A stretch of DNA of 64,000 nt. Source: Glandiceps talaboti. Lineage: Eukaryota > Hemichordata > Enteropneusta > Spengelidae. Location of the stretch: NCBI RefSeq assembly GCF_964340395.1, contig NC_135570.1:9761322-9825321 (forward strand). The letters are read 5' to 3'. Numbering within the stretch: position 1 is the stretch's first letter; each line of letters begins with the position of its first letter. The notes under the pieces were generated by a model. It was not told the DNA's origin. It saw only the letters and a list, made by a program, of their open reading frames with translations, and did not search any database. A program made the translations under genes and the position numbers. Positions 7,765-36,697 of this stretch are shown here, piece by piece.

Positions 7765-7839
<75 letters not shown>

Positions 7840-10800
7840 AAAAGTTATAGCTACAACAGTCTCTAATAAAAGGCAAAAAAAATTGATCTCAGAAAATAGG
7901 GTAGGTAGGTTGGGATTTCATTTTATTTTCTTTTTCTTTTTAATTGACCCCAAAACAAACAAAATGTTGGTCAGAATACTCCTGTGATAGTTTGATGAAA
8001 TATGTACAGATATCACTGGGGAAAGAAAACATACATACATGAAGGTCAAGAAGACAAAGAATTTCTTAACTTTTTGTCATTTTATTTACATTTTTAAAAA
8101 AAAATTTAGGGTCAGCAAATTAAACTAGATGTAGTCAGAAACACGCATTTTTTTTAAATATGCCTAAGTAAGTAAAATCACTGTTTAATCCTTGTCAAAC
8201 AACTTTTAAAATTCATGAAAGAAAAAAATTATCTTCATTCATAGTGTAATTATTTATAGTAATGACTGACCTTACAAACGTCATCTGGTGTCATCGTGTC
8301 AAGTAATTGTATTATGAGAGGGAAGTACTGCTTGACAAGGGTTGTACACTGTAAGCAATCAAAGTACCATACATATTACAGTAATTGTATTATGAGATGG
8401 AAGTACTGCTTGACAAGTGTTGTACACTGTAAGCAATCAAAGTACCATACATATTACAGCAATTGTATTATGAGATGGAAGTACTGCTTGACAAGTGTTG
8501 TACACTGTAAGCAATCAAAGTACCATACATATTACAGCAATTGTATTATGATAGGGAAGTACTGCTTGACAAGGGTTGTACACTGTAAGCAATCAAAGTA
8601 CCATACATATTACAGTAATTGTGTTATGAGAGGGAAGTACTGCTTGACAAGGGTTGTACACTGTAAGCAATCAAAGTACCATACATATTACAGTAATTGT
8701 ATTATGAGAGGGAAGTACTGCTTGACAAGGGTTGTACACTGTAAGCAATCAAAGTACCATACATATTACAGTTATTGTGTTATGAGAAGGAAGTACTGCT
8801 TGACAAGGGTTGTACACTGTAAGCAATCAAAGTACCATACATATTACAGTTATTGTATTATGAGAAGGACGTACTGCTTGACAAGGGTTGTACACTGTAA
8901 GCAATCAAAGTACCATACATATTACAGTAATTGTATTATGAGAGGGACGTACTGCTTGACAAGGGTTGTACACTGTAAGCAATCAAAGTACCATACATAT
9001 TACAGTAATTGTGTTATGACAGGGAAGTATACTGTTATACTGGGGATGTACATTGTCACCTATCACAACAAAATGCACATTTTGTAACTTAGCATTTCAT
9101 TTCTAACTGGTTTATAAAACGATTAACCTTTTTTTTTAAATGTCGGTGTATACATTTGTGGTGTGTTTTATTGCCTTAATTTTTCTAAAACACTGTCAAC
9201 TGAAAATACAACATCCATTTGTAGATGGTGTAAGTTGCAATTTCTTGTGTCAAACAATTTTCTTGTTTTTTTTCTTCATTTTATCTACCCATCATGCTAC
9301 ATATTCTTCACATATCATTAATACACCAATAAACTGAGAGGGGATATTTTGAGGGAATATAATACTTTACCTCATCACTAATGGAGGCTGGAAGTGCACT
9401 GCACAGTTGTTCAAGTGCATTTTCAATTTCTGCTTCAGTAGAGTTGCTTTTAAGGGCTGTTAAGGCATACTGAGCAACTAGTTTGCACACATCACAATAC
9501 TGATCATCCTTCACTGGAGAAACTACAAGGCAAACAAACAAATGAATATCAAAGTCAATTTGTAGACACCACAGATGCATTTGAATGCTTTGTTCTTAGC
9601 ATGAGAACAAAGTGAATGCCAAAGATAACAGTGTATGTTTGGCAACACTTCCACAGATTACATAAACAACATTTTTGTCCTACTTGGAATAGACAACAAG
9701 ATGTCTTGAAAGCTCCGATCCAGTACCTTCTGCATTGGGCAACCAGTGTGAGAATGATATGCAAGAGGAAATGAAAGGCTGCTCTTGGTCTTTGTGACTG
9801 TTTGTATGACAAGAACAGTGTACCTAGACACACACCTAATACTACATAACACGTCAAAATATGTAGTAGAGTGCCACCAATTATCGGAGTGTGGTTCTGA
9901 ATATTAAAATTGTAAAATAGATATTGCTGCCTTTATGAGTAGTGATAGTTGATCTTCCAGTGGTTTATAAAACCATATTTTTACTTTTTTGAGATAGAAA
10001 TTATGAAACCGAATTACAGACTACAAACCAAAAAGGTATAAATGTTTACAATGCACTGGTTTAATTTTGAGATATGTGCAGAATTTACATAAACCTAAAT
10101 CACAGGAAGAACTTAGGTGATCTTGGACTATGCCTGTGACAAGTGTTGCCATGGTTATGACCCAAGATGACTTCAATAACCCCTACCTTTGACGCTGCTG
10201 GAGCTGCACAGTCCAAGGACCTATAGAACAAGAGTAGAGATTTATTGTTACTGTAACAAAAAGGTGTACTGACCAAAAATATTTATCAGCTTGGTAGATC
10301 AAATGATTTACAAAGGTTATAACCCACAAGCAGTTCAAAGTTTTTTAGCATTGAGCTTTCGATCTGTCTTGGTCTATGATCCTCATCAGAATGACAAATT
10401 CCATAGTTACAGCTGACCACCAGGTGGCAGTATGATCTGTCTTGGTCGATGAGCCTCATCAGAATGACAAATTCCATAGTTACAGTTGACCACTAGGTGG
10501 CGGTATGATCTGTCTTGGTCTATGATCCTCATCAGAATAACACATTCCATATTTACAGCTGACCACCAGGTGGCGGTATGATCTGTCTTGGTCTATGATC
10601 CTCATCAGAATAACAAATTCCATAGTTACAGCTGACCACCAGGTGGCGGTATGATCAGCTGATTATAGATTTTAGGTAGCAAAGATGTATCATTTTTTGG
10701 GAAAATGTTGCTACATATATTTTAACAATGAAATTACAAATGGTAAATAATTTTAGATTTGATGCTAAAATACATCATTTGAATCTATTCACCTACCTGG

Positions 10801-13370
10801 CATATCTGATCTGGTGAGAGCTGATCCAATAATTGGAACACAATAGGTCCATACTCTGCAACCAGTGAGGTGCACTGTGAACAGAATTATACCTATGTTA
10901 GATGTATTTACAGCAGGACTGTTACACTACTGTGATTATTAAATATACCTATGTTAGATGTATTTACAGCAGGACTGTTACACTACTGTGATTATTTAAT
11001 ATACCTATGTTAGATGTCTTTACAGCAGGACTGTTACACTACTGTGATTATTTAATATACCTATGTTAGATGTCTTTACAGCAGGACTGTTACACTACTG
11101 TGATTATTTAATATACCTATGTTAGATGTCTTTACAGCAGGACTGTTACACTACTGTGATTATTTAATATATGTATGTTAGATGTGTTTACAACAGGACT
11201 GTTACACTACTGTGATTATTTAATATGCCATATTCTGCTGGGGTGGGGTATTTGCACTTGTGCTCGCAGTGCTTTCTGTTGCCCTTTCACTTGAAAGTAC
11301 GCCAACAAACAACACTGCCAGTATGTGTGCAAATACCCTAAGTATACCACACTGGCACTCACACATCATGGGTTGTCATATTATTTGTATTTTGGTGATT
11401 GTTTCATACACCATGATGTTCACCTACCATGGGGAAAGTTTTAGTCCTTATTTTTCATAATCAGTTTCTTAAGCAATACTTAGCAAATTCACCACAAAAT
11501 AGTGCCAATGGAATTGTAGCATAACTGTAAAGTTTGTGATCATTTAACAAAAATTGTTATCTGCATCCTTCTTGTTACCATGCAATATACACCATCATTT
11601 TAGTTTTGCTATATGCAGTTTCTAAGTTGCCAGGTAACTATATATGATTTTTTACAATATTCATCTACTTGCCAAACTATTCCTATTGTTATCTTTGACA
11701 TATAAACTATCATAAGGTTGTTGCTATGGGCATGGTCTTGTTGCTATGTAGAAATGTATTCACTTCTTTGGATATATATCCACTTGCCTAACCAACCCTA
11801 TTGGTATCTTTGCAATATACACATCCATTTGGCTGTTGCTATGGGCATGGTCTAGTTGCTAGGCAAACATGAGATCATATTTGCTAAAAACTTACCTCGT
11901 CTTTGATACTTGCTGGCAGGATAGCACAGACTTGATCTAGAGCTTGTTCAATTTCTTGTTGTGTGGCATTCTTTTCCAGGACTGTGAGGAGATACTGACC
12001 AACAAACTTACACAGTTGGCATGTTGTGTCATCTTTTACTGGAGGAAATAAACAACAGATACCATTAGTAACTGGTGTTTAGATTATAGTGGATACACAT
12101 GTAGACATCAACCATCAACTTTTACCCATCTGCAATTCGATTTTTAAGCGAGTCCTGATGTTCACTTTTATCTTAGTTGTTTTTGTATCCATCTTTTTGT
12201 CTTCTTTTTATATTGATTTTAGGAGCAACAATGAATAGCGACATTCCAATGTTTTAATACATACAACAATAAAGTATCAGAATGAGAACCTGAATTATGG
12301 ATGGGGTGGAGGGTAATCAACAGTTCAATAGGGAGTCAGCAATACCAGTGTGGTGAGGCTTTCTTGTATACAGAGTCACTTTTCTTGAATGTCTGACATC
12401 AGATATACAATGTACAATCATAGTTATTATGGAGCACAGACAGATGGAACCCATTCATAAATGCCCTCTGGTGTTGAGTGGAAAGGGTGGGGTGCTATAA
12501 AATGGCAAAAATGGGTCACAGTAGCACTCACAGAGTTAAGGAGCAATTCTTGAACACTTATTGCCACTTTTACAGTTTTGCAAATATCAAACTTAAAGGA
12601 TACTTACCACCAACATTGTGAACTTGGTTGGAAGTACAAAGTCCAATTAACTAGAGAATATGGGAAAATAACAACAACAACAAAATTGGTATAATTGATA
12701 AACAGTGGCCATTAAACGTCAATGATACAATATCCAGATTTCTGCTAGGGAGTCTGCAGGCTCTGCTCCTAAAACACCCTAGTAGCTTGAATTGTATTCT
12801 GTACATTGTTTGTAGTCAATCTACTTACAGTGTTCTAGTCAATATGACGTAAAGGCAGCAATTTGAGTACATGCCTTTGCTATCACTTGTAGAGAGATAT
12901 TCATTATACAGAATAATTTATACTTATCAATGTATTGATTTTGGTACTCAAAGATTTGTTTGGAGGGCTTCCTACTGCAAGTTCATCCTCTTCATTTCAG
13001 TCTTATGAAAGTATGGCCAGAGAGAAATCTTACCCTGTGAACCACACTGTGGCAGTCACTCATCACAGGGGTTTATTTTGGCATTCACTTTGGATTATGG
13101 TATGTACAAACCATGACAAGATTTAACACATTTCATACATACATACATACATACATACATACATACATACATACATACATACATACATACATACATACAT
13201 ACATACATACATACATACATACATACATACATACATACATACATACATACATACATACATACATACATACATACATACATAGATACATACATAGATACAT
13301 ACATAGATACATACATACATACATACATACATACATACACACATACATACATACATACACACAGACACAC

Positions 13371-13417
<47 letters not shown>

Positions 13418-16400
13418 TACACATACACATATGCATACGCATACAGCCATCAATTTTTTATAAATACATGACATGACAATCATATTCAAATAAACTTCTT
13501 ACTTCACAGACTTTGAGAGGATCCAAGAGCTGTTCAAGCAATTCTGGGATGGCCATACCATACTGGGTGATGATGTCATTACACTGCAAATCAAAGTGGA
13601 TATACAAGTCTATGAGATCAAAGTTGTCTAATTTGTGAGCCAAAACATTATCAATGTATATAATGAACTATTTTTTCTGTTATTCCACAGGGGTGGGGAA
13701 CAGAGAGAAATGGGTGGACTATACAATGAAAGAGCATGGACGATGACTTTACGATATTCTGTGCTTTCAACAAGTGGCTGCTATCAGGGTTTTGCTTTAC
13801 CCCCAACTACTGTTAAAAAGAGTTAATTTGAAATGTTGGTGATTTTACAACTTTTAAGAACTGTACATCTGCAATGTTTAGCCTTCATTGCTAATCATTT
13901 ATTGTAAATGAGCCATTACCATTTGAAGGGACCATATGGATGAGGATTGAGTAATTATTTTTGTATTTTTAATTTTTAAATTGGGAAATCAATGTGAAAC
14001 AGCATTTACCTCGTCTGAGTTGTAACTCAATACTTTGCAAAAAGCTAAAATATGTGTAAAAAGTTTGTTATTGTATGTGCAATAACAAACACATTCATTA
14101 ATCTTTTGTCATTTATTGAGGTACAAACAAGGACTTGGCATATGTTGTTTCACATTGATTTTTCAAGTAGGAAGCCATGATAACAATTGTTTTATAAATG
14201 AAATATTCAAAAATAAATACCTAATCCTCATCCATATGGTCACTTTGAAGTATAAAACTGTAACAATGCTATGACAGGGATAAGTACAAAACAGTCTCAT
14301 ATTGTGCGTTCAGTGGATGGACAGTACAAAATAGCTTTTATTACTGGCACATGTACAGCCTTTACATACACAAACCAACAATGAAATCTTTTTATGTTCT
14401 GGGCTATGTTGCAAGAATGACACAGAGTCATATTTTGAGTGGATATGATTATTTCACTTACCTGTCCTTTGAGGCTGTCTGGTAGAATGTTACAGAATTC
14501 ATGAAGACCTTGTACAATTTTTTGTTTGGTTTGGTTCTTATCAATGAAAGAATCCAGATACTGTACTACTAACTCACACAGACTACATTCAGTGTCTTTA
14601 AGATCTACAGAGAAATAGACATGATATGACACTGGTAATCCAGTCTTCGGTGTACTAAGATAGGTGCAAACTAAAGCTATTGTTTTTCGATGTGGTAGAT
14701 TACACAGTGGGTGATGGAAGTTCTTTACTTTCCTTGGACAAATACAATATATACATTGATTGGTTGGTTGGTTGGTTGGTTGGTTGGTTGATTGGTTGGT
14801 TGGTGGTGGTGGTGGTGGTTAAATAATTCTGGTTATTGTTGCCATACTGATAGTAATCTTGTCAAGAGTGAATTCCTTAAACTAATGGACTGCAAACAGG
14901 AAATTGAGAATACAGCACCCTTACTCAAATTGGGGGCATTATCACCTCCTAGTACTGTTTCATAAGAGCTTTGTCCCTTGGTATTCTATAGAAGTGTAAA
15001 TCAGAGATGTTTTTTGTATTGTTCAGACATCGAGGAAAGCACCAGTGCTCTATGATTAACAGGGTAACCTATACCATGTATACCCCCAAGGTACACACTG
15101 ACAGGAAGTAGAGCGCCACCACTGTAAATTTTGCAAAGGCCTATTTAATACATACCTCTAAAACTCTTCTGGTTAGCAGTACACAGTCCTAGTTTGGTGC
15201 AAATTTCATTGGGACTGAGTTTAAGGACCAAAAGGTTGATGATTTGTACTCCATAATCATCAATAAATGTCTTGCATTCTCCACGGATTGTGTCTGGTAA
15301 TATGGTACATACTTTATCCACTACAGAGATGATCTCAGACTGTGAGGTAAACACGACATATAAAACATTTTATTACACCTCGACGTTCTTCCGAAGGCTG
15401 TGATTGGTCAGACTCGTATCACGTGACCGATTTTAACTGGGCTATTGCCCACAAGGTGATATAAACATTATAAAGCACCATACATAATATATAAGCCATC
15501 GGTCTTTGTCAAACTCTCTGTAACACAGTGTTGAAGGATTTCAGAAATTGTAGTGAACCATAAACTTTCTTTTGGTCTAAAACTACTTAGTTCAGCTGTT
15601 GCCATGACTATAGTCATAGTTGTTCATATAGACTTTCTTTGGTTCATGTTCTGAAACACTTGCACTTCTTGATATAAACTTTTTCATACCTACAGGTAAA
15701 CGCCATCTGAATATCCCAATCTGACCTGATTTTAATATTGGGTTACAAATCTTTTGACCAGAAATAATATCATTTCAAATCAAATTTGCATGCCGTAGGT
15801 CAGCTTATCTGATCATGTTTTCACTTGAGGCATACCGCAATAAACAATCTTAAGTATATTTGCGCAAATAAAAGTAAATTAAGTAGTAACATCTCACTAC
15901 ACTACTTACAATGGTGGAGTTTTGTGTGATAAGGGAGTCAATTTCTTGCATTGCTAGGGTACACACAGCACACTCAATAGAGCTTTTCTGGGCAACCTTC
16001 TTTGCTGGTTTGATGTCTACGATAGGGACAGTCTGAAAAATGGACAAGAATAAACTTTATTTTAACACAGCTGATCTACCTTCAAATTTCATTTTTGTGA
16101 TTATCAGATACACACTTAGTCTGCAAATTCACATACGTATTTCAATCAACCTTTCTGTTGATTCAAGAGTGTGTGTGTTTGTGAAAATTACTCCTCTAGT
16201 ACATGTACTGACTTTGTGCAGACACAACATAACAAAATTAGTCATGATAAAATAATCAAAATATAATTATTAGCATGTATATAATAGCTGAAACAATCAA
16301 AATTGGAAAGAAAATGATATTCACTTTTGAATAACTTATCTTGCAAAAGAGAGATGAGAAAGATAAACTGTAAATAACTCATGAGAGATAACAAGTTGAT

Positions 16401-19400
16401 AGACTGACAGACAAGCTAATAGACAGACCAGACAGACAGACAGACAGACAGACAGACTGACAGACAGGTTGAGTGACAAGCGCATTGTGCAAGCTAACAG
16501 GAACATGATGTATGAGAATGAATTACAGTGGCCATATTTAACGATAAAATGTCTGTGTGTCACATGTCATATCACTTCATGGTTACCACTCTGTATTATC
16601 AGACCTGTGGACTGAAAACTGACAGTGTGTATAACCTGTAGCACAATAAACAGCAGATAAGAGCTGGACTGTTCAGTAGTGTTGGTTCTACATTGCCATT
16701 CAGTCTCAAACAGAAACAAACCCTTTGTGCCTAAATTACTACAAAATCTTTTTGCTTACAAAGAAATGCCTATCTAATATAATCTCTGATATATCCAAAT
16801 CTTGTGACATGTGTACACCTGTAAATTTGGTACATATTCACTTGTTAACAATATCATGTCCTTACTAGTTTACCAGCCAGTCTTCCTTGACAAAATCCCA
16901 GACCAAAGCATATGGTCTCTGGATCCTGCAACATAGAATACAAGTATAGTTAGATAACTGATTTACAATGTCCTAATCATAACAAACATGTTATGATAAT
17001 TTTGAAACGTTATCCCAAATGTACAAAATGCACTCTGGGGACCAATTTCCTTGAAAATCAAGATTTTTCAAATCTCTCTCCAAACTTTGCCACATGAAAC
17101 CTTGTTCCTAGTCCTTTTCAAGTAATGTAAGAAATTTTGGGTTCACCATCTCGCTTTCAAGGAAATCGTCAATCTTTCATATTCCATAGAAATTGGCAGC
17201 CATATTGGATTTTAACATGATTTAATTTTGATATCATTTTCAACTAAATTAAAAAAATTTGAATGGTTACCTCCAAATTTTCTTGCTTTCAACATAGAAT
17301 AGGTTGGACTTTTCTTGAACAAAGTATTGGCCAATATTTTAGACTTTTATTTCTGAAGTAAATTTTATGTCAAAACAGTTTCTCCTCCCAACTACTCATA
17401 GTATGTTTACAAGTACATGTATAGACATCTAAGTTTGTCATTTCTCTTGGGGGTTGCTTTGCTTCGAGGTGTTATCGTACAACACAATTAAAATGCTGCC
17501 AATATTTTGACTGTTCTTTTGATTTTCACAAGTCCTAGTCAAGACATAGTCATCAAAGACTGAAACCATTTCAACAGGTTGAATACAACCCATTCGGTTA
17601 AAGCCTTACTGTGAGTGTGATATAAATAGGGGTTGGATTAAGATGACACTCATTATGCTAGATGACTTTGACCGTGTAACACACTCACAGAGCTCATAGA
17701 GCACTAGTCCTATATGGAATTGCCAAAATTGTTATCACTTAATGTTGGCCTGTGGTATTATGAATATACAGGAAAAAAATCTGTAACTTTCATTTTCAAA
17801 ATAGTTGTGTTTTGGGGACGGTAATCATTAAAATGTTGGCTTGATAAAAGTTGGAAGTGTCGAGACACTGACCTGGGATTGAAAATTAGCCCTTTAATAT
17901 TCCTGTTTTGAAGATACTTTGAATGACAATTAAATAATACATGTTCACTTCTAATATGAAATCACACAGAATTGTTTCATTCATTCCATGAATTCAATAC
18001 AGTTATGTTGCTCTTTGTGTCATCCACATAGTTTGCATAGTTTTAATAACATTTTTTGAATGACTTTTTTGTGTTCCATAACCATGAAGACATACATCTA
18101 TGATAAACTAAACCCGTTTAAAGTACAGTGAATTTCACAACACCATGCAGCTTTTCTGTTTGATACAACCAAACAGAAACCAACAAGAAACTGCATATGC
18201 CACACTTCAAATAGCAAGAACACCTTTTTGGCTACATTTAGTCTATATGAAATAAACCATTTAAATGTATTGCAACTCCATGCAGACAATTGAGTCCAAT
18301 ATTTTTCTTAGTATCAAACACCCGATGAAGGGTATGTAAAATGTCCTTTGTGGTGTTCATTCGATGGCATGTATAGTTCATTTCACTTTATAGGCAAAAT
18401 GTAGCAAGAACTGTACTCATTCAATCTTGCTATCTTAAAGTGTATCATAAAGTTTCTCATTGGCTTCTGTGTGATTGTATCAAACATAAAAGCTGACTGG
18501 CTTGGTGAATGTCAAATAAGCCTTACCAACTCTGTTGCAATTAGGTTCATAATTTGTCTTATATACTCATTGACATAATCTTGGCATTGGGTTTCTAATG
18601 GTCCAAGTGCTTGGCAGAATTCATCAAGGATTTCCATAACCTCTTCCTGTGTGAAACAAATCATATTTAATAAATACTACATCATTACCGGACCATGTTG
18701 ATGTACAATAGAAATTTTGGTTGTGAAAAGCAGTTGTCTGGCAGAGTTTAGAAAAGGTGTGTCTAGAAAAAGAGAATGACCCAGGATGTAATCCTACTGA
18801 TAAGATAACACTAATGTGAGAACCTGGGATTGAATTATGGGCCTTTAAAATCAGCATCAAGAATTTCATGATGTGTTTAGTAGTATAAACATACTGAAGA
18901 CACTACACAAGATACAGAATCCATCATTTTGTTAAGTATAACAACACATGTTTAAAATCTGTGGTACCAAAACTACAAACTTAAATGCTATAGTTATCTG
19001 AAAATTTTTCATCCGACATAAATGTTCACTTATTTTAGAAGAAGAGAAAAATGTGAAAATTTAGTCCCAAACCATGACCAAAAATTTGCCGAAAATTTTG
19101 AGTACAAAAAATGTAGAGCTTCATATTTAATTACTGTATCTTCCATTATTTCAATCAAATTGTACAACATACATGTATTTGTCACAAAAACTTACAAAAT
19201 ATAAAATAATTTAGTTTTAACCTAGTAAGAAACATACTAGAAATGTCCTGTTACCGTTTGTAGCACCATAATATTTGTCTTTGTGTTTGCCACTTTTCTC
19301 GTACTGGAAGAGAAAAGCACTGGAGGAAATAGTTTGTTCAACTCACCTGTGTTTTGTTGTCTTTCAGTGCTTGCTGTGCCTCACCTATAAACTTTTTACA

Positions 19401-22400
19401 CTCAGTACAGATGTCATCATTGGGTTTCTGTAATAACAAACATGTATCTACCTATGTATCTCCCTGAATACTAGTTACTGTGTTCAATCAGAGCCACTGA
19501 CACACAGTAATTTCTTGGGACTCACAAAAAGAAATTTGATGTTCTCCTATTCCTTACTGTGTATTAACTCACAACAAAACCCATTTTTATTGAGCTTGAT
19601 TCATGTTTGTAGTAGGGTGATGCAGTACACATCTAAAGATGCAAAAGGCATCAGTGAAATATGTTTTCCCATTCTTGGTACCTGTAATATCATTTTACCT
19701 CATGCTACAGGGTCAAAATAGAACAAGAAGACTGACTTATTCTCTAACTATAATAATAGCATTTTACCTCATGCTAGAGGGTCACAATAGAACAACTTAT
19801 TCTCACACATCCCTAATGTATGTGAAGTATATGGAACAGAAGTTATGGAGTTCACCAAGAAATTGAATGTTTGTTATTTTTATGATGCACCTAGGCAGTA
19901 ATATTTTATTTCAGGTACCGAGAATTCCTTTCTATGTAGTGACTCACAAGAACACTTAATTGTAATTACGAGAATGAATATTTTGGAACTTGGTTCAAAA
20001 AGTGTTGCAGTACATCTCTAACAATGCAAAAGAGACATCAGTGACAATATGGGATTATTATCAACAATTTTCTGAGTCAGTACAGTATGTATTAAATTTT
20101 ACTATTTTGACTTACAACTAGACAATTTTGTTTAAGCACACTGCACATGACAGTTTGTAGTGTACATATTTGTGCACAAAATTGCTCATTTGTTGAAGAA
20201 TACTCTTACAATTATTTTGCATATTCTATGAATAACAAGTGAAAGAAATCACTTTGATTTGAATGTAAATATTAAGGTTGTTAGTAGATAGAATGCACAG
20301 AAAAGATACTATATGTAAATTAGAGCTGATACATAGAGTAAAGATGCTCTACATAAGGTAAGTGCATTTCCATGGTCCCTGCAGATTAGTTGTATTACAT
20401 GTGTGATATGGGTAATTGAGGGCACACTCTCATTATGTATTTTGCAAAGGTTCGGAAACTTGGATAACAACCAGTGTGCCCTCTAAGCCAATTTGACATG
20501 TCACTGATGCATACAATTTTTAGTGATGCACCAATATTTTGTGATCCCCTATTTCTTACTATGTGGTGACTCACAAGAAATTCTAGTTTTTATCTTTTTG
20601 ACTCATAGAGTCATAACAACAAAATCTGGCTACCATTAGAGGGCATACTGATAACAACAAAGGGTAAATCTGGTAAAATTTACAGAGACATTGATACCTT
20701 GTACTGTAATTTGGATGCGGAACAGGTCTTTGCTTCTTTTAAATACTTTGTTTATGTTTTTATGTTTCACAAGTTCAAAATATCAACATGTGGACTTGGT
20801 GGCAAAACCAGAACCAACACTGCTACTACTACACTGCTACTCTTTGTTCAAACATGCATTTGGTGCACACAGACGCCAAGAATACTATGAACACAAGCAA
20901 TGTGTATAGTACTCTTACAAAACTCAGTGACCAACTGACACAGGAGATTGTGTTTTTTCCAACTGCTATAATCACTGATAGATACAAGATGCTTAGTAAT
21001 ACTTTCATTATGCACTGTAGTAAGCTTGTCAGTTGCTTATAGATGGTCAAACTATGTTGCACTGACCACTATAGTGGACAGATTAGTACTGCCAAGAAAG
21101 CAGAATGAAAAAAACATGAAACAGAATGAAAACAGAATGAGATGAAGCAGAAAATGACATGCGGCAAATTTTAAAGTGACGCTACACAGCACAACACTAC
21201 AAGAAAGACAAAGAAATTGACAATAATGTTGTACTCTACCAAAGACAATACCTTAATCATTGGTTTGATAGCAACACCTGGTTTGCAGAGTCCCATAGCT
21301 GTACAGATGGTTTCTGGGTCCATTTCACTCACAATCAGATCAAACAATACATCGGCATATTCATCGACGGCTGAACGGCACTACAAGTGAAACAACAAAA
21401 AAAGCCATGGGAGTATTAGTACAAATAAAAGAGTTATTCCCTGGAAACATATTATATCATAGTTCTTGGCTTCTTAATTCAAAGTGTGGATTCTTAACCT
21501 TGTACAATGTAAACTTGGAAATTTTCGCAAAAGACTTATTTTCACCTCTTTTTCCGCTGGAAAACAAGAGCAAAAGTAAGTACCCGGTAGTGACTAAAAT
21601 GTCTGCTCGTACTTGAACACATTGTACCAGTCTTGTAATTAGTAAAACTTAGTCTTTGAGAACAATCTGAATACTATAAAATCACTCAATTTTGTAGTGA
21701 TAAAAGTGGGTAGTAGGTTTATAGTATTTTGGGGTAAATCACTCTGCCTTCACCAGCTGTTATTTTGTTCATGGCCCAATGATGAACATTTGGCACATAA
21801 CACTAGCACTACTACTTCTTGACAATCTTTTTTTAAGTGATGTCCCCTATCCCTAACTATACAAAAAGTCTAATTTACCCACCTTTACCCAACCTTTACC
21901 CTACCTGTGACCCTCCTAACCACCATTTCTGTCCAGGGGTAGTACAAGATGCAACACCACTTTTGACTGTCTACATCCCCCTGGGGAGATATCACCATGG
22001 GTAAATTGCCCCGGTAGGTAAAAGGTGGAACTTTGTCTCATACTCACTACATTTACACGTCCTTTACCTCGAGTGGAAAGACATGGTCAAGAAAAACTTT
22101 TCATATAGTGATATATATAACATAACTAATATGCAAATTCCCCTTTTGCCATTATGACTCACACCAAAGGGTGTCTTTCTCTAGCAGACACACTGAGCAT
22201 TGGTTTCCATGGAAACAGAGCTTCAGCAATCATAGAGATGCATGTATAATGTACATAAGTTTCACTTACCATGCTTTTCAGTTCAGCATCAGGAATGAGA
22301 TCACAGGCAGAGTCCAGGAAATCAACCACTTGTTTCTGTGTAGCTTTGTTGGCAATCAGGTTACGTGCAGTTGTAATCACCTCTTTGCAAAAATCACATA

Positions 22401-25400
22401 CTTCATCATTCTGTGAGAAAAAAGGAAAATATACATGAAACACATCCACAACTCAAGGAAATCTTTTAAAAGTAAAACCTGTGATGTTTTTCAACACCTA
22501 ACAGTTACAGTTACTACATGTATGTAGCAAAGTCAATACAAGTTACACATGAAATGTAGAGGTGCATTTTCCTTTACTAGAGTTTAATATATCAGTTTTT
22601 TAGAATCTCAAATCTATCATACATTTATTACAATGTATCAACTTTTGTATGATATAAATATTTTGATTTATTTTTGGCAAAAATCAATTTTTTTAATTTT
22701 TTTCCTTTTACATCTTGGGTTATATTTTTTACCAGGTCTCTCAATCAGGAAATGTTGCAGAGATCATAGGAATATAGCATCACAAATCATCTTGATGAAT
22801 TGTGATTGGATGTGATCAAGATTTGGAAAAATTTGCAGTATCATACAATTAGTGCATATACACAAGAAGACAAAACAAACTTCCAGGCACCTACATGTAT
22901 GACCCCTTCATTAGGCTCATGGGTCCATAAGGTCAAGTGTTGAATAGTGGGTCAATCTGTTGACAAAAACTGAACTGCGCAGTCGAAAATTTCATGTACG
23001 ATTTTCAAGTTTGTGTTTGTGTTTGTGTTTGTGTTTGTGTTTGTGTTTGTGTTTGAAACAAAAGTTCAATACTAAAACATAAGGTTTTACCTGTTTTGTG
23101 TATTTAGGTGACCAAACATTATCTTTGCAGTGTTGAATAGCACCACATTCCTTAGCTGTACTGATATGTTGACACCAATAACCTGGACCACGTGTACATT
23201 TCTCCTTGCCAAATAACTCAGCAGCACTGGCTGTAAGACATAGATACACACAGACAGTTATATTAACAGGGTTTTAATATACATAGATTTAGTAATCGCA
23301 CAATGTTAAACAAGCTCAAAAAACAAACTTTGTTGGTTTTTGCTATTTTCTAAGAATGACAACTTTCTCAAACGCCTTGATGACATCCGATAGTTTGCAG
23401 TTTCTTTTCTTGTCTCACCAAAAATTGTCATGGGTGAAGACAGATAGTGCAGAAAACCTGTTATTTAAATTTGACTTTGGTCGTAAGGACCTTGTGTTGA
23501 AAATGTTTCTGGGCTGTCAATTTTCTCAAAATGACATTTCTGTAGTTAGGCCTTTATGACACTAACTCCTTCAAATACAAATTTTATGCATACATACAGC
23601 AGATGTTCATTGATAAGATATATCAAACATAAGTATGATAAGTTAAACATGCGCAAACCAAGGTATCTGTAGTCTGTAAGGTACGCCGTGACAGGGCGCC
23701 CTCACACATCGACCTACCACTAGGAGGCCAGTGAGGGCAAACATCACAACGTATCTTACAGTCTAAGGTATCTGCAGCATTCAAAGAAAATACACGATTT
23801 AATTTTATTTATTTGTAGTTTTTACACAAAAACATGTATCTCCAACATTGGATTTTTAAAATATAAGTACAAGTCACAATACTCAAGTCATCATTCTTTT
23901 CCCTCATTTTTCTGAGATTATTCTTATGCAGGTATAATCATATTTAATCATTTTTCTGAAAATTTTAAATCAACTGGAAAATATTTCTGAGTGACATATA
24001 CATGTAAGTACTTTGCCACCTGTATTGAATACTGATAATCTAGATCTGACTTTTGTGAGCACTGATCAATTGTAAATTGTTTTTGCTATAACAGGAGGCC
24101 AAACAGATATTCATTCGAGAAAGGAAATTACGAGACCCCTCAATACTTGATCAAGAGAATGTACTGTCACATATACATGTAAGTGTTTATCACTACAGTT
24201 GAACAAAAGGAAGGAAAGGCTCCTTAGGTCACTCATATTTTTCTCAGCTGAACACCGAAAAAAATTGGCTACAGTGTAGTACACTACCGAATGATCAGAG
24301 AAACAATACATATAGAATCAATGACATTGAACTTTTTAGTATTTTACGTAACTTATTTTCTTGAGCAAAAAATATTTTTAATATTACATACTTTTCATAA
24401 ACCATTGCTCAAAATGATTACATAACAAATTTTCCAGCATAATATTGATTATACTTCATTATCTTTGCTCATTTTGATGATTAATGACATTTAATTTATA
24501 ATATTTAGTTATTACAAAAATTGTGTTGGTCAGTCAAGCATAGCAATGATCACGCATGTATCATTGTATGCGGAATACAAGCCGATGTACATTATCATTA
24601 TATTAGTAATGCAAATTTATTATAAATTTGCATTACTAATATTATGTAAATTTGCATAATAATTATTATTATGCAAATTTACATAATGTGCCTTTTGTCC
24701 TGAGAGCTCTAGCCCCTCATAATCATACTCTGGACCACAGACAAGTACTTACTTGTCTATGTCCGGACAGACAGCCTTGGCAAAGTTTGAGACTTATGTC
24801 ACTAAACTGTGAACAATAGGAATGATTTACAAGCCATTGTGACAAGCCTGTCACATGATTGCCACATGATGCAAATTGATATAAAAGTAAAAGTCACATG
24901 AGTAGAAGTCAGACAGGGATACCATGATGTCAATAACAGGAACCTGTGCCAGGAACTTATTGTACAAACAGGATGTCACTCTATTTAAATATCATGAATA
25001 TTCATGAGCACACTTAATACATTTTAATACTCATGATACTGGCAAGACTAACATGTAACATTACAAAATAAACAACAAAATGTACATGTGTTGTGTTCTT
25101 GTTGACAGTGTTGGGGAGGCTGTGGTTAGAGTTGTGATATTTTTATGAGGACTACAATTATTTGGTTTGCAGAAATGGCATACATAAAAATAATACCTCC
25201 CCAAGAGCATATACTGCAATCTGGATGTGAGTGGAGGGATACCATAGAGGAACTAGACTACATGGTACATACAAAATGTATCCTGTTCCTTACATGGTAC
25301 ATATAAAATGTATTCTGAGGAACAGGATATCATACAGGATGTGATTTAACAATTAAACAACTTTTCCTTTTTTTTCATTTTGTTCATTATTCCTGTTTTT

Positions 25401-29935: not shown

Positions 29936-30810
29936 TTTATGAATGAATGAATGAATGAATGAATGAATGAATGAATGAATGAATGAATAAATGAATGAAT
30001 GAATGAATGAATGAATGAATGAATAAATAAATAAATAAATAAGTAAATGAACTTTATTTCCTACAGATAACAAAAATAAGCTATACTTTGAAAGAAACAT
30101 ACAATACAAATATACAAAATAAATACAAAAGAAATACACAATTGTTATCTGATGTGGACCATTGAAATAGTTCAGTGGAACTACTCTTGTCCATGGCCAG
30201 TACAATTGTTATCTGATGTGGACCATGGAAATAGTCCAGTGGAACTAGTCTTGTCCATGGTCAATACAATTGTTATCTGATGTGGACCATGGAAATAGTC
30301 CAGTGGAACTAGTCTTGTCCATGGCCTGTACATTTTTCTACATTTCAAAGTTTAATTTCCTACATATGCTCTATATGTTGTTGTAGTACTTTGTACCTTG
30401 TACCTTATTCCACTGTTGGTCCACCAAGGACTATAAACTATCAACATGTACAGTTCTATCATTCAGTCAAAAGAAGTTGTGTAATATGCTAAAATCCAAT
30501 ATGACGTAATGTTCTATGGCACTGAACAGAAACAGTAGTAGAAAGCAGGAACAATAGTAGATCATTGTAAAAACTTAGAGAAATCTCTTGCAAACAGATG
30601 TGTCTTGATATCCTTCTTGAATTTATTGATAGTTGGTGATGAACGAAGTTCAAGTGGTATACTGTTCCATAACTTGAGGGGTGCTGCTTGTGAGAATGCA
30701 TACTCACCATATGACTTTGTATTACATTGGGGTACATGAAGTAGACTTTTCTTGTTTGGGTGAAGTGAATGAATTGTGAGTTGCAGTTCTATCATTTGAG
30801 AGTTTTCCAT
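29936..30810 (-). mobile_element. 3' end of a LINE retrotransposon (CR1/L2-like), truncated
   Basis: On the minus strand, 30810-30562 encodes an 82-residue piece typical of the C-terminus of non-LTR reverse-transcriptase proteins: VPQCNTKSYGEYAFSQAAPL, KLWNSIPLELRSSPTINKFK, then KDIKTHLF. A 3'UTR follows, and then a tail of ATTTATTCATTC repeats (29936-30050), as in tandem-repeat-ended LINEs. It is 5' truncated and lies in SELENOU intron 1. Three copies of a 64-bp unit with GTGGACCATGGAAATAGTCC sit in its 3'UTR (30134-30330). Confidence 0.8.
30134..30330. repeat. Three-copy 64-bp tandem repeat inside the LINE 3' end
   Basis: Unit: CAATTGTTATCTGATGTGGAC, CATGGAAATAGTCC, AGTGGAACTAGTCTTGTCCATGG split by spacers. 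The copies are nearly identical. Confidence 0.8.
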
Positions 30811-30891
30811 AATGCACTTATGGATCTTCTCTTTAATTTGTAATTTACTTTTGTAAAAGTCAGACTGATGATCTAGTCTTCTTTATTTCAG

Positions 30892-31191
30892 GTGGAGAGT
30901 CTGTGGGGGTCAGTGGTCACCATGGGTTGGACATGGAGTGGTGCAGCACTAGCTGCTGTGACTGGTATTGTCATTGCTAATATGAATTTCTGGTTACCAA
31001 CAGAACCAGCAACCAAGAGATATTTGTCTGATTCTATTCTACAAGTTATCAACAAAGAGTATGGTAGATACAGTCATTATTTTCAATATTTAGGTAAAGG
31101 TCGTACCAGTTTTAAATCTAGTGAGCTGTGGAAGGAATCTGGTGCTGTCATCCTGGCTGTTAGAAGGCCCGGATGATCCTTGTGCAGGGAG
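30892..31191 (+). CDS. SELENOU: SELENOU first coding exon with the Sec codon
   Basis: Acceptor TTTATTTCAG, 30 nt of leader, then ATG 30922. The exon ends in phase 0 at GAG, before GTAAGT (31192). It contains TGA at 31174-31176 (residue 85) and the partner Cys codon TGC at 31183-31185 (residue 88), giving U-S-L-C. Confidence 0.93.
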
Positions 31192-34100
31192 GTAAGTGAT
31201 GACCTCATGAGGGTTCAAATTTAAGTCTTTTTAGGTGAAAACTATGATCCATGGTGATCTAAAACTGGTAACAGACTCATGAGAGTTGTTGAGGGATGGT
31301 ACCCAACAAACACAACTGGCTACTCTGTAATATTTTGCCAACTATGTTTTAAAAAATTTGTTTTAAAACATTTTCAGTTCGACCACTATATTTCCATCAC
31401 TGGGCATATTTATGAGTCTCATTTCTCGATATTACTGCCTACATTGTATTTTTGACAGTTTACCTGCTATTTTAAAAATTAGCTACATCCCTGAGATTGG
31501 TCTTTTGGCCATTGTTACCTAGCATTGTTAATTTAAAGTTGGGCAGTTCAGGTTCTCACATATCTACCTTGCTGTCCCACACTACAAAATTCTAGCCAGG
31601 AACCAGTGATGTTTAAAGAGCATATCCCATAACTGTATTGAGTGTCAATACCTCTACAAGGCCATGCCCTCAGCCATGCTTCCATGTACAAGTCCATTAC
31701 AAGTACAGAAATTTGGATCTGTTTTCAGTTTCATGTCAATCACTAGTCTGCAAGATATGTGTTGTGTGTGCCATGCTACGTACCATTTTTTAACCCTCAC
31801 TAACTTTATGTATCCCCTGGTATTTACCTAAATGATAATACCCATTGTTTATAATGTTTTCCCATCAAATAAGAGCTTTTTGCACTTGAATGCAATGTTC
31901 ATTCATTATTGGTTGGCATTCCACTTCGTCTACCAGCTCGGCTATTGAGTGGTTTCCTATGGCCAGACCTTCAAAATGTAACCCTGCTATGTCTATTATA
32001 GGAAGCTGTTGAGCTGTCCTCTCTGAAAGGAGAACTTCACATCGGAACTGTCCCAGTACCCATTTTTGCAGTGGTACATGAAACAGAAGGTGTGGAGGAA
32101 TTCAAGGAATATTTTGATGGGGAGGTGTTTCTAGATAAGGAGGTAAGATTTGATAACACTGTTTGATTGGCTACTAACGGTACCAGCTGATTTGATAACA
32201 CTGTTTGATTGGCTACTAACGGTACCAGCTGACTTCTTTGTATATACAATGCAAGTGTGACCAATAGCCATGCCAGGCAGACTAACAAGAAAGCCCAGCT
32301 CATTCTTCAAGTAGTTCACTGCAGCTCAGCTGCGTAATTAAAAACATGATACACACAGATGAAAAGGATAAAGTTGGATGATAAAAGGTTAAACAGTTTA
32401 AAATGAAAGTGGTAGCAGCTAAATCCTACCAAAATCATCTTATAAACAAAACATCAAAAAACTTGTTACCATCTTTTGTTAGAAAATCTTTTTTTTTTTT
32501 GAAAGAGATGTACTCTACGTAATAAACTTTGCTTTTTTGAAGCCAAAGTTCTTTGAAACAGGTTTGTTCTCTATACCATACACTGTGTGTACTCATAATA
32601 ACACATTTTTGTTCAGCAATCATCGTGTAAAACAATGTGTTCTGTATATTTAGTAATGAAAATTTCTACTCACAGAGTCAAGAAATTTCTTGGAAGAAAA
32701 TCTCAAATTTTTGCTGATGTCTTGTCAGTATCATCAGGGGTGTATTCTATACTTTACACTGTGTACGACATGATATCACATTCTGTTCATCAAATATGGT
32801 GTTAAAAAAAGAATCATTACTTAGTTTGAGTGTCACCTAAGTCACTCATTTTTAAAGCCACAGAATAAAACCTTAGTTCATTTACATGACTCTATGAGAC
32901 AGATTCAGTGAATAAAACTGGAAGGGAAAATTGTCCTATAATCATTGTATTTTGTATGTGTTGCTGTAGTCTAGAGGCTTAACATGGCTCAGAATCTCAA
33001 GATCTCTCTTCACCCCGTCTAGGTCAACGAGAAATCATGAACCAAAAGTTGATCATACAAATGAGCAAACCCCAACAGTTAGAATGATACCATATTTGGA
33101 CATAATGTGATGTGACTGCCTCCATTTTTTTCTCTGCCTACTTATGAAAAATTTACTGAGCTGTTATCATCTGACCAAATAGTTAATTTACAAAGTCTTG
33201 CAGCCTTTCTCAAACATGCTCTACCAGTAAGAGCTGAAGCAAATGAATTAGAGCTGTAACCTTTAACCGTATTGTGTATTTTGTTTAAAGTGATTTGTAT
33301 TTTTGGCCAATGGCCTTTGAATGCAACAAATGACTTGTATATAATGTGACTGCCCCAATGAACACAAACATATCATTGGGTTGACTTCTGTGATCGATTA
33401 TGAAACAAAGATACGTGTGTGGCCAGTTCTCTTTTGAGTTGAAATTTCATCTCAAGACCTCATTGAGTTAGATGTGAGATGAGATTTGAAGCCATAGAAA
33501 ACATCTAGACTACTGTAACATGTAATATCTAATAAAATACAGTACTTTCATCTTTTCCTGCTAGTGTCTACTTTGCTATGTTTCTGTCATTACTAACAAT
33601 AGACTGAGATATTTGTCATATTGTGGGTGCTCCTTCAGTTGCATTACACTATATGTTGTTCCCCAATATTTTGCTTCATTCAGCCAAAGAAAATATGAGA
33701 GACCTAAGGGAGCTTCGTCACAAGGAGTCTGGTGACTCGTAGTGACAACCTTTAGGTCCCAAGTATTTTCTGGCTGAATGAAAATAAAATGTTGGAGAAT
33801 AACATAATTATACCAGCGCAAGTAGTATCAAAGAAAAATGGCAATTTTGAACGTTTTGACTCACAGTTCGAACACAGCAGAACCAGTGACATAGACATGC
33901 ATTGCCGAGACATTGATGCGCATTGCCATGACGTAGAATGACCAGAGTATAAATTCCATATTTTTTGTTCAACTTGGCTTGTGCATTGTATAAGGAGTGT
34001 CCACAATGATAATATTTTAAGTCCACATGAAGCACCTTCTCTTTCCCTTCTATCACTGTAATTTCAATCGTTTCAGAGACGATTTTATGGTCCTAAAGAA

Positions 34101-34993
34101 CGTTGGATGTTTTTATCTGGTTTCCTTCGACCAAACACATGGTTGTCTTTACTCCGTGCACATAGAAAACAAATCCATGGTAATTTAGAAGGTAAGAAAT
34201 ATGTGATAGTCAAAGTCATTTTCAAAAAAAAAAAATGTTGTTGTGGTTTGATTTGTAGAAGAGATTCTATGGGCCTAAGCAAAGATGGATGTTAATCACA
34301 GGATTACTACGTCCAAATGTGTGGCTGGCTGGTCTTAGAGCTTACAGGAAAGGTATTCCCCTGAACTTGGAAGGTAGGCATTTGGATCAGACATCTTTAT
34401 AATAATCACAGGATTGTATGCAGTAGAATACAAATCTATTTAGCAGCTAATCACAACTCCACTGCACAGAATGTTACTCACTGTACAGACTACCTTAATT
34501 TTCTAGTCAAATGTCTCACTTAGCATAGACTAGCTTCATTGCATAGAATACTATTCACTGTACAGACTACCCAGAAGTTTTACAGTCAACTGTCTCTGTC
34601 ACTTATCATAGACTTCATTGCATAGAATACTATTCACTCTACTGACTACCTGTAGTTTTAGTCAACCTGAACCAGTTGAGTTTTTTTAAAAGTTAGTTGA
34701 ACTCCTGCACAATTCTTTTACATAATACACCAGCTAGAACTATGGAAAAATTGATACAAGTAATTTCTGAGAGCAAGTTGGTGATAAAATTTTACTTTGT
34801 AAAAGTAAGTGATGTATTTTCATTTGCAGGTGAAGGTCGACTGCTTGGTGGTGTCTTTGTTGTTGGTGCAGGAGAACAAGGTGTTCTGTATGAACATAGA
34901 AACGCTGACTTTGGAGACCAAGCTAACTGGGATGACGTAGTGGATGCTGTACAATTGATTCAACCAACAATTCCATATGAACCTCCAACATAA
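30892..34993 (+). CDS. SELENOU: Selenoprotein U / peroxiredoxin-like 2A, with in-frame TGA (Sec)
   Basis: Thioredoxin-fold redox protein of the PRXL2A (FAM213A) family. Coding exons are 30922-31191, 32002-32142, one of 34077-34191 or 34259-34373, and 34830-34993 (TAA 34991-34993), giving 229 aa, the length I recall for human PRXL2A. The start ATG 30922 has a strong Kozak context (GTCACCATGG) and begins an N-terminal hydrophobic segment (GAALAAVTGIVIANMNFWL). Residue 85 is TGA (31174-31176) in GAVILAVRRPG-U-SLCRE; mammals have Cys here. Translation stays homologous for 140 codons past the TGA, and a SECIS element lies in the 3'UTR, so TGA is read as selenocysteine, not stop. Other motifs: FKEYFDGEVFLDKE, RFYGPK, LLGGVFVVGAGEQGVLYEHR. 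Automatic annotation will probably truncate or split this gene. Confidence 0.94.
32143..34076. other. SELENOU intron 3, with a 42-bp duplication and one foldback
   Basis: A 42-bp unit (GATTTGATAACACTGTTTGA...) occurs twice at about 32148-32231, beginning next to the exon 3 donor. An imperfect hairpin at 33679-33782 (CATTCAGCCA...TGGCTGAATG ends, ACCTAA/TTAGGT inside) looks like a small foldback element. No exon is seen. Confidence 0.55.
34077..34191 (+). CDS. SELENOU: SELENOU alternative exon 4a (mutually exclusive)
   Basis: 115 nt, TTTCAG acceptor, GTAAGA donor. Encodes RRFYGPKERWMFLSGFLRPN then TWLSLLRAHRKQIHGNLE. It matches exon 4b at 25 of 38 residues and fits the same phases on both sides. 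Confidence 0.9.
34259..34373 (+). CDS. SELENOU: SELENOU alternative exon 4b (mutually exclusive)
   Basis: Also 115 nt, with TTTGTAG acceptor and GTAGGC donor. Encodes KRFYGPKQRWMLITGLLRPN then VWLAGLRAYRKGIPLNLE. Only 67 bp separate it from exon 4a. Including both exons would shift the frame and meet TAA at 34276-34278 after six codons, so only one can be used per functional mRNA. Confidence 0.9.
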
Positions 34994-35112
34994 AGATTAC
35001 CACCATGACAAAAATTATCAAAAGGCCATAGTTCGTAGGATTAAAAATATGAGTGATAAAAACAGATGTCTGGTAGAAAAAAAGTTGGTCCAGAACAAAA
35101 GAGTAATTAATC

Positions 35113-35220
35113 CTCATGGCTCCACTGATAGGATCACACCAATGCCAGAACCTGGGATTGAACCATTGGCCTTTAAATCACAATGGCAATATTTGGATTC
35201 CATGTTCTCACATTAGTGTT
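35113..35220. mobile_element. Dispersed repeat (SINE- or MITE-like) in the SELENOU 3'UTR
   Basis: Contains CCTGGGATTGAACCATTGGCC and the end TTCTCACATTAGTGTT. Related copies at 18770-18870, about 17870 and 62385-62565 share CCTGGGATTGAA and CCTTTAAA. Its complement contains a B-box-like GGTTCAATCCC, so a tRNA-derived origin is possible. Confidence 0.5.
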
Positions 35221-35869
35221 ATTTTATATCAATGAACTATAAGAAAAAGTTAACATCATTCTTTTGTTTTGGACCAAATTTTTCTATAGCTCGATCTACC
35301 AGACAATTATTTTTCTCACACAAATATTACTATTAAATCAAACATGAGCCTTTAAGTATAACGAAAGTACCACTGTCATTATGGGACAAACACCATCTGA
35401 ATAAATTGAAAACTTGATATGGCACAAAAAAATGATAAAGTACAGGTGATCAAGAATATAATCTAGCTTTCAGTTTTTATTTCATTTTGAATCTATTTGT
35501 ACCAAATGTCTTTTTATGATTGTCAGGTGAAAATAAAAATCAGTGTAACCTACTGCCAGCCACCGTACAGGTCGTCTCTATACAATGTAAATCGTGTACC
35601 AGTATACTTAATACGTAATAAAATATTTGGCCATGGAGTTGTAAAGAATTGCTATGTTAGATTTCAGTGAAGTTTACTGTGCTTCCAATTGAAGTATGAA
35701 TGATGAACTGTTGCAATGCATTGATACATAAAGTAAAAGTTTGTAAAAACTATAGTAGGGTCAGATCAAGGGAGTGTCGCAGTTGTGAATGTTATTTCTT
35801 TCAATCGTAGCAAATTTCAAATTTGGTGTCTCTGACAGTTACTGAGGTTTGTTGTAATTAGACATTGAT

Positions 35870-36520: not shown

Positions 36521-36589
36521 CATATCTTTATGATGGTGTAAACTGAAAGGTGTCATCACCAAGGTTTACACTTGAGGTGTCCTGATATG
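36521..36589 (+). promoter_or_regulatory. SELENOU: SECIS element, type II
   Basis: A complete selenocysteine insertion hairpin. Helix I: CATATC (36521-36526) pairs GATATG (36584-36589). An internal loop follows. Quartet: UGAU (36531-36534) opposite UGAG (36573-36576) gives the tandem G.A/A.G pairs, with AUGA as the 5' signature. Helix II: GGTGTAAACT (36535-36544) pairs GGTTTACACT (36563-36572). The apical bulge GAAA holds the unpaired AAA (36546-36548), and a mini-stem GGTG/CACC (36549-36552 and 36557-36560) has a TCAT loop. The extra mini-stem makes it a form II SECIS. It would bind SBP2 to recode the upstream TGA. Confidence 0.95.
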
Positions 36590-36691: not shown

Positions 36692-36697
36692 AATAAA
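36692..36697 (+). terminator. SELENOU: SELENOU distal poly(A) signal
   Basis: AATAAA about 100 nt after the SECIS. It is the first canonical signal that keeps the SECIS in the mRNA. Confidence 0.6.

Follow-up and report, generated by a model that had tools for sequence, protein, structure and literature searches.

A gene on the + strand of the Glandiceps talaboti window (the whole stretch of 64 kb analyzed here) very probably encodes a SelU1 selenoprotein, in which Sec85 would be read from a UGA with the help of a SECIS element at 36522-36588, and two copies of coding exon 3 would give rise to two isoforms. We estimate the probability of this reading at roughly 95%. An AhpC-TSA_2 domain, an in-frame UGA at RRPG-[U/C]-x-x-C, and a SECIS predicted in the 3′ UTR identify the gene as SelU1/PRXL2A. 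It shares the RRPG-U-x-x-C motif, the PF13911 domain, and the downstream SECIS with the Sec forms of SelU1 (PRXL2A, FAM213A, C10orf58), whereas the tandem duplicate of coding exon 3 and an insertion, KEYGRYSHYFQYLGK, distinguish it from these Sec forms.

Coding exons and the in-frame TGA

The PRXL2A/SelU1 gene has four coding exons on the + strand, and the assembled CDS of 690 nt encodes 229 residues. Coding exon 1 (30922..31191), which is covered by the homology alignment, runs from the ATG to TGC AGG GAG, which is followed by the donor gtaagt. It includes the Sec codon and is translated as MGWTWSGAALAAVTG...ESGAVILAVRRPG-TGA-SLCRE, with the stretch GAVILAVRRPG before the TGA. The acceptor ..tatttcag stands immediately before 30892, and the part of the first exon that precedes the ATG (30892..30921) represents either the end of the 5′ UTR or an upstream continuation of the coding sequence; an upstream stop in frame with the ATG at 30922 ends at 30876. 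Coding exon 2 (32002..32142, EAVELSS...FLDKE) was assigned by its reading frame and homology, and the position of the intron between exons 1 and 2, CRE|EA, is the point at which several gene models of relatives rejoin. Two tandem copies of coding exon 3 follow, 3A (34077..34191, RRFYGPKERWMFLSGFLRPNTWLSLLRAHRKQIHGNLE) and 3B (34259..34373, KRFYGPKQRWMLITGLLRPNVWLAGLRAYRKGIPLNLE), and coding exon 4 (34830..34993), taken from the assembled CDS, ends in TAA. All of these exons lie on the + strand.

The TGA at 31174..31176 on the + strand, the putative Sec85 codon of a U-x-x-C motif, is in frame with the ATG at 30922 and is the sole internal stop of the 690-nt CDS, of which the terminal codon is TAA. 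It is followed by 144 codons, 5 in exon 1 and 139 in the spliced exons. The sequence-only reading had proposed an in-frame TGA in a PRXL2A/SelU gene with homology continuing for about 140 spliced codons, and both proposals agree with the computed gene anatomy.

Pfam returned only AhpC-TSA_2 (PF13911), which scored 60.9 bits with exon 3A and 54.3 bits with exon 3B against a cutoff of 27. When the exon 3B isoform, with Cys in place of Sec, was compared with 5.8 billion proteins, 54 matches were obtained. The best match was a Batillaria protein (50% identity over 92% of the query, E 7.6e-56), and the leading matches also included sea urchin proteins named peroxiredoxin-like 2A. Seven of the ten best matches are named peroxiredoxin-like 2A or FAM213A and three are unnamed. 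Alignment with the relatives revealed homology on both sides of the TGA, which occupies the column of the leading Cys in the C-x-x-C motif (RRPG-U-SLC), the first catalytic position. In human prostamide/prostaglandin F synthase (PDB 9us9), the Sec85 column corresponds to C44 of the C44/C47 pair as counted along the alignment, and the title of PDB 9usa describes the C44S/C47S mutant of this type of enzyme. Thus, the placement of the TGA on the C-x-x-C site in the earlier reading is borne out both by C44 and by the Cys found there in related proteins, as described below. Prostamide/prostaglandin F synthase (SelU3 type; 9us9, 9usa) has the same fold and its CxxC aligns with U-x-x-C, but it contains Cys rather than Sec, belongs to another subfamily, and is only 24-27% identical to the structural model of the Babylonia homolog (P0006) used below.

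It is exceedingly improbable that the TGA is a true stop, which would make the locus a decaying pseudogene or the source of a truncated protein of 84 residues. Although simple-repeat and LINE-like sequence lies close upstream of the gene, the remaining codons are all open across the four spliced exons with their splice sites intact, and the 3′ part of the protein is 81% identical to a Saccoglossus model. Moreover, the TGA falls precisely on the Sec/Cys column and a SECIS lies downstream.

The Sec site in related proteins

To classify the Sec site by sequence pattern, 100 distinct proteins were collected from three homology searches. Cys occupies the site in 40 of them, while 38 start only one or two codons past the site, at [M/L]CRE. 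The remaining 22 comprise one protein with Trp, four without the site, and others that either start in its vicinity or beyond it or have a different sequence there. Two of the three queries began past the Sec site, so that this collection is biased towards truncated models; with the full-length exon 3B query alone, 39 of the 54 matches have Cys, 12 start at xCRE, and three are of other kinds. The 39 include the sea urchin protein and those of two gastropods. This prevalence of Cys indicates that Sec is dispensable for the fold or function. The Trp was found in a metagenome cluster (P0079, RRPG-W-RLCRE), and it probably reflects translation of a Sec UGA as Trp in the source pipeline.

The many models that break at exactly the Sec site fit the earlier expectation that gene callers would stop or start late at such a codon, and their sequences suggest that these relatives may carry Sec as well. 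The breakage pattern corresponds to that described for the annotation of vertebrate selenoprotein genes, in which almost 22% of Ensembl transcripts are reported to skip the Sec codon (PMC12822975). SelU1 is a further example of selenoprotein genes that ordinary annotation breaks. Four models run through yet lack the site and rejoin at EA..LS, namely those of Saccoglossus (P0030), Stylophora (P0072), Mizuhopecten (P0084), and Liparis (P0087), and taken at face value they would suggest that the TGA is removed by splicing. However, the products would lose the active site RRPG-x-x-LCRE, no good donor was noticed just before the TGA on inspection by eye, and the same source documents skipping of the Sec codon as an error of annotation (PMC12822975). 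We consider removal of the TGA by splicing hardly credible, and retain the reading of the TGA as a translated Sec codon.

The nearest sequences are two partial Saccoglossus kowalevskii models named peroxiredoxin-like 2A, P0030 and P0082. The identity is 62% over 125 residues with a query lacking the active-site stretch, and 81% over 80 residues with P0082. Saccoglossus has the same insertion as Glandiceps; among 30 aligned rows only the Saccoglossus row is similar to KEYGRYSHYFQYLGK, and the sea urchin stretch at this place is unlike it. Two extra residues in ELxIGxVxVPIFAVVHE are likewise common to Glandiceps and the Saccoglossus row only, among the 30 rows. Within the limits of database sampling, these similarities and the divergence from S. 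kowalevskii point to another hemichordate species. The Saccoglossus gene model breaks at the Sec site: the annotation splits the gene into two fragments, neither of which includes the Sec motif, and P0030 omits RRPG-x-x-LCRE. SBP2L has been reported in Saccoglossus (PMC2746813).

That SelU is an established Sec/Cys family with Sec in some invertebrates, as the sequence-only reading had stated, is in the published record: SelU1 proteins with Sec have been described from invertebrates, fish, birds, and reptiles, with conversions to Cys at later stages (PMC3473315), and all vertebrate Sec SelU proteins have been assigned to SelU1 (PMC3316567). Since Sec in SelU1 is already published, the Glandiceps Sec codon is a further case of a known phenomenon. 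We found no report of SelU in hemichordates among the matches listed for the open-access literature, as judged from titles and the starts of abstracts. The present gene would add a Sec-form SelU1 in a hemichordate, while the one public gene noticed there, that of Saccoglossus, is annotated without the Sec site. This would be consistent with Sec being an ancient condition of SelU1 among deuterostomes, even though Cys is present in the sea urchin protein.

SECIS element and poly(A) signals

All Rfam families were scanned on both strands of the whole 64 kb, and the only match of any family at the gathering level was RF00031 (SECIS_1) at 36522-36588 on the + strand (40.4 bits against a gathering threshold of 35, E 0.0001). 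The element contains ATGA (36530-36533), a 10-bp helix, an apical loop with AAA (36546-36548), an inner mini-helix, and TGA (36573-36575) opposing the ATGA, an arrangement that we take to be form-2-like. The folding energy was -19.3 kcal/mol with a modest z score of -2.54, and 3 of 200 shuffles were as good.

The SECIS starts 1.53 kb past the TAA of exon 4 on the same strand. About 104 nt after it there is an AATAAA poly(A) signal (36692..36697, +) with a GT-rich stretch downstream, and earlier AATAAA sequences occur between the TAA and the SECIS at 35400, 35532, and 35617; all of these were recognized as patterns only. Because three AATAAA sequences precede the SECIS, transcripts without the SECIS are possible. 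An imperfect, MITE-like palindrome is present in the 3′ UTR at 35044-35328. The sequence-only reading had placed a SECIS in the same transcript as the TGA. The SECIS itself was confirmed, on the + strand as required, but the AATAAA signals that precede it had been overlooked, and we infer the shared transcript from the strand, the distance, and the subsequent AATAAA.

The 1.53-kb gap with its three AATAAA sequences might suggest that the SECIS is part of a different gene or of a transcript of its own. However, the window contains no second SECIS at the gathering level, and no Sec candidate other than the SelU gene was noticed. A weaker argument in the same direction is that no other + strand gene was recognized from 34993 to the presumed LIN54-like region described at the end, with 10 selected ORFs of the window compared with Pfam. 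An origin of the SECIS in another transcript is therefore very unlikely. Four lines of evidence point the same way: the codon position, the homology on both sides, the SECIS, and what has been published on the history of Sec and Cys in SelU1. Decoding of the TGA at 31174-31176 as selenocysteine explains the sequence far better than any other reading, and it is from this agreement that we infer Sec insertion itself.

In the proposed mechanism, the ribosome would decode the UGA at 31174-31176 as Sec85 under the direction of the 3′ UTR SECIS at 36522-36588, using the ordinary animal machinery of an SBP2-type protein, eEFSec, and Sec-tRNA. The product would be a SelU1/PRXL2A peroxiredoxin-like thiol (here selenol) oxidoreductase, in which Sec85 attacks a peroxide or disulfide substrate and Cys88 resolves the intermediate state, presumably as in the Cys homologs. 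As three exon junctions lie past the TGA, the mRNA would be expected to become a target of nonsense-mediated decay when selenium is scarce.

Tandem copies of coding exon 3

The earlier reading was upheld, but it did not mention the duplication of exon 3. Exons 3A and 3B are adjacent homologous exons of 115 nt each and equal phase, separated by 67 nt and flanked by the shared exons 2 and 4. They are identical at 70 of 115 nt (61%) and 25 of 38 amino acids, and both retain AG acceptors and GT donors. Inclusion of one copy gives the CDS of 690 nt, whereas both copies leave a length of 1 mod 3 and neither copy a length of 2 mod 3, with premature stops. These are the features of a mutually exclusive pair. 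Because the frame is broken by both or neither, 3A and 3B are predicted to be mutually exclusive, a prediction that rests on this frame rule and not on steric exclusion by the 67-nt intron. Splicing would then pick 3A or 3B to produce the two isoforms.

The 45 nucleotide differences between the copies are distributed over the three codon positions as 13, 6, and 26, that is, mostly at third positions. The NG86 dN was 0.28, and dS was not computable. This codon-position pattern together with the dN argues for selection on both copies. For comparison with homologs, exon 3 was aligned in 87 of the 100 retrieved proteins, 86 by a pattern, which itself fixes four columns, and P0082 by hand; 13 proteins without the pattern were left out, and a trailing column filled in 45 rows was kept outside the count. 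Eleven columns are dominated by a single residue (80% or more of the 87 rows), and of these 3A keeps 11 and 3B keeps 10. In the seven columns unfixed by the selection pattern, the numbers are 7 of 7 and 6 of 7, respectively. The deviation in 3B is a change from G to L before a conserved N, where Gly is kept in 83 of the 87 aligned sequences.

Some of these data would suit a dead or unused 3B, with only 3A spliced in. The donor of 3B (gtaggc) is further from the consensus than that of 3A (gtaaga), the conserved Gly is lost, and the sequences of other animals are closer to 3A (63 of 86 homologs, against 13 nearer to 3B and 10 ties). Only a 3A-like exon is visible in Saccoglossus, where the P0082 fragment is identical to 3A at 21 of 29 positions and to 3B at 18 of 29. 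On the other hand, 114 nt of 3B are still open despite the divergence of the copies to 61% nucleotide identity, and the predominance of third-position differences, the dN value, the conservation of six of the seven unbiased columns, and the intact acceptor and donor dinucleotides all speak for a functional exon. It is thus rather unlikely, if less so than the alternatives considered above, that 3B is unused, and alternative use of the two copies is the preferred reading.

An AlphaFold2 model of the Babylonia homolog P0006 (mean pLDDT 91.6) was used to locate the segment encoded by exon 3. A Foldseek search with this model gave proteins of the prostamide/prostaglandin F synthase type as the top three matches (TMt 0.78-0.83). 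In the model, the segment corresponds to residues 129-166, lying between predicted strands 122-125 and 174-178 and covering predicted helices 141-145 and 147-158 together with the loops that belong to them; the catalytic Cys 77 is followed by a predicted helix at 78-88. Thus, 3A and 3B are predicted to exchange a helix-and-loop segment of 38 residues in the peroxiredoxin-like fold. By analogy with this fold, the swapped segment may be near the active site or touch the substrate. We consider it reasonably likely that a single selenoenzyme gene gives two SelU isoforms through 3A and 3B with the Sec site unchanged, that the segment swap probably affects the choice of substrate or partner, and that poly(A) signals before the SECIS might switch between Sec-containing and truncated products. 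The exon pair would be a natural experiment, in which the same Sec is combined with two versions of a nearby segment, and the isoforms are of interest because the substrates of the SelU family are poorly known. Among the matches listed for the open-access literature, titles and the starts of abstracts contained no report of such an exon pair in SelU/PRXL2A or of mutually exclusive exons in selenoproteins.

The window has 35% G+C and contains spliced genes. Upstream of SelU, saposin-type exons of a prosaposin-like gene are present at 3661-23273 on the - strand; four selected ORFs within 9311-23273 gave Pfam matches to SapA or SapB_1, and other ORFs looked alike by eye. Directly upstream of SelU exon 1, a - strand ORF at 30565-30882 without a Pfam match ends in LKLWNSIPLELRSSPTINKFKKDIKTHLF, which we take to resemble the tail of a LINE reverse transcriptase. 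A perfect 42-nt tandem duplication (32147-32230) lies a few bases past the exon 2 donor, and intron 2 also contains an imperfect, MITE-like palindrome (33653-33807) with sub-threshold matches to plant-type miRNAs. The below-threshold Rfam miRNA matches were dropped, as they came mostly from simple repeats or from this palindrome. At 58640-59758 on the + strand, there are exons of the Tesmin/TSO1-type CXC domain (PF03638), presumably LIN54-like, the second ORF of which scored 21.2 bits, below the cutoff of 23.5.
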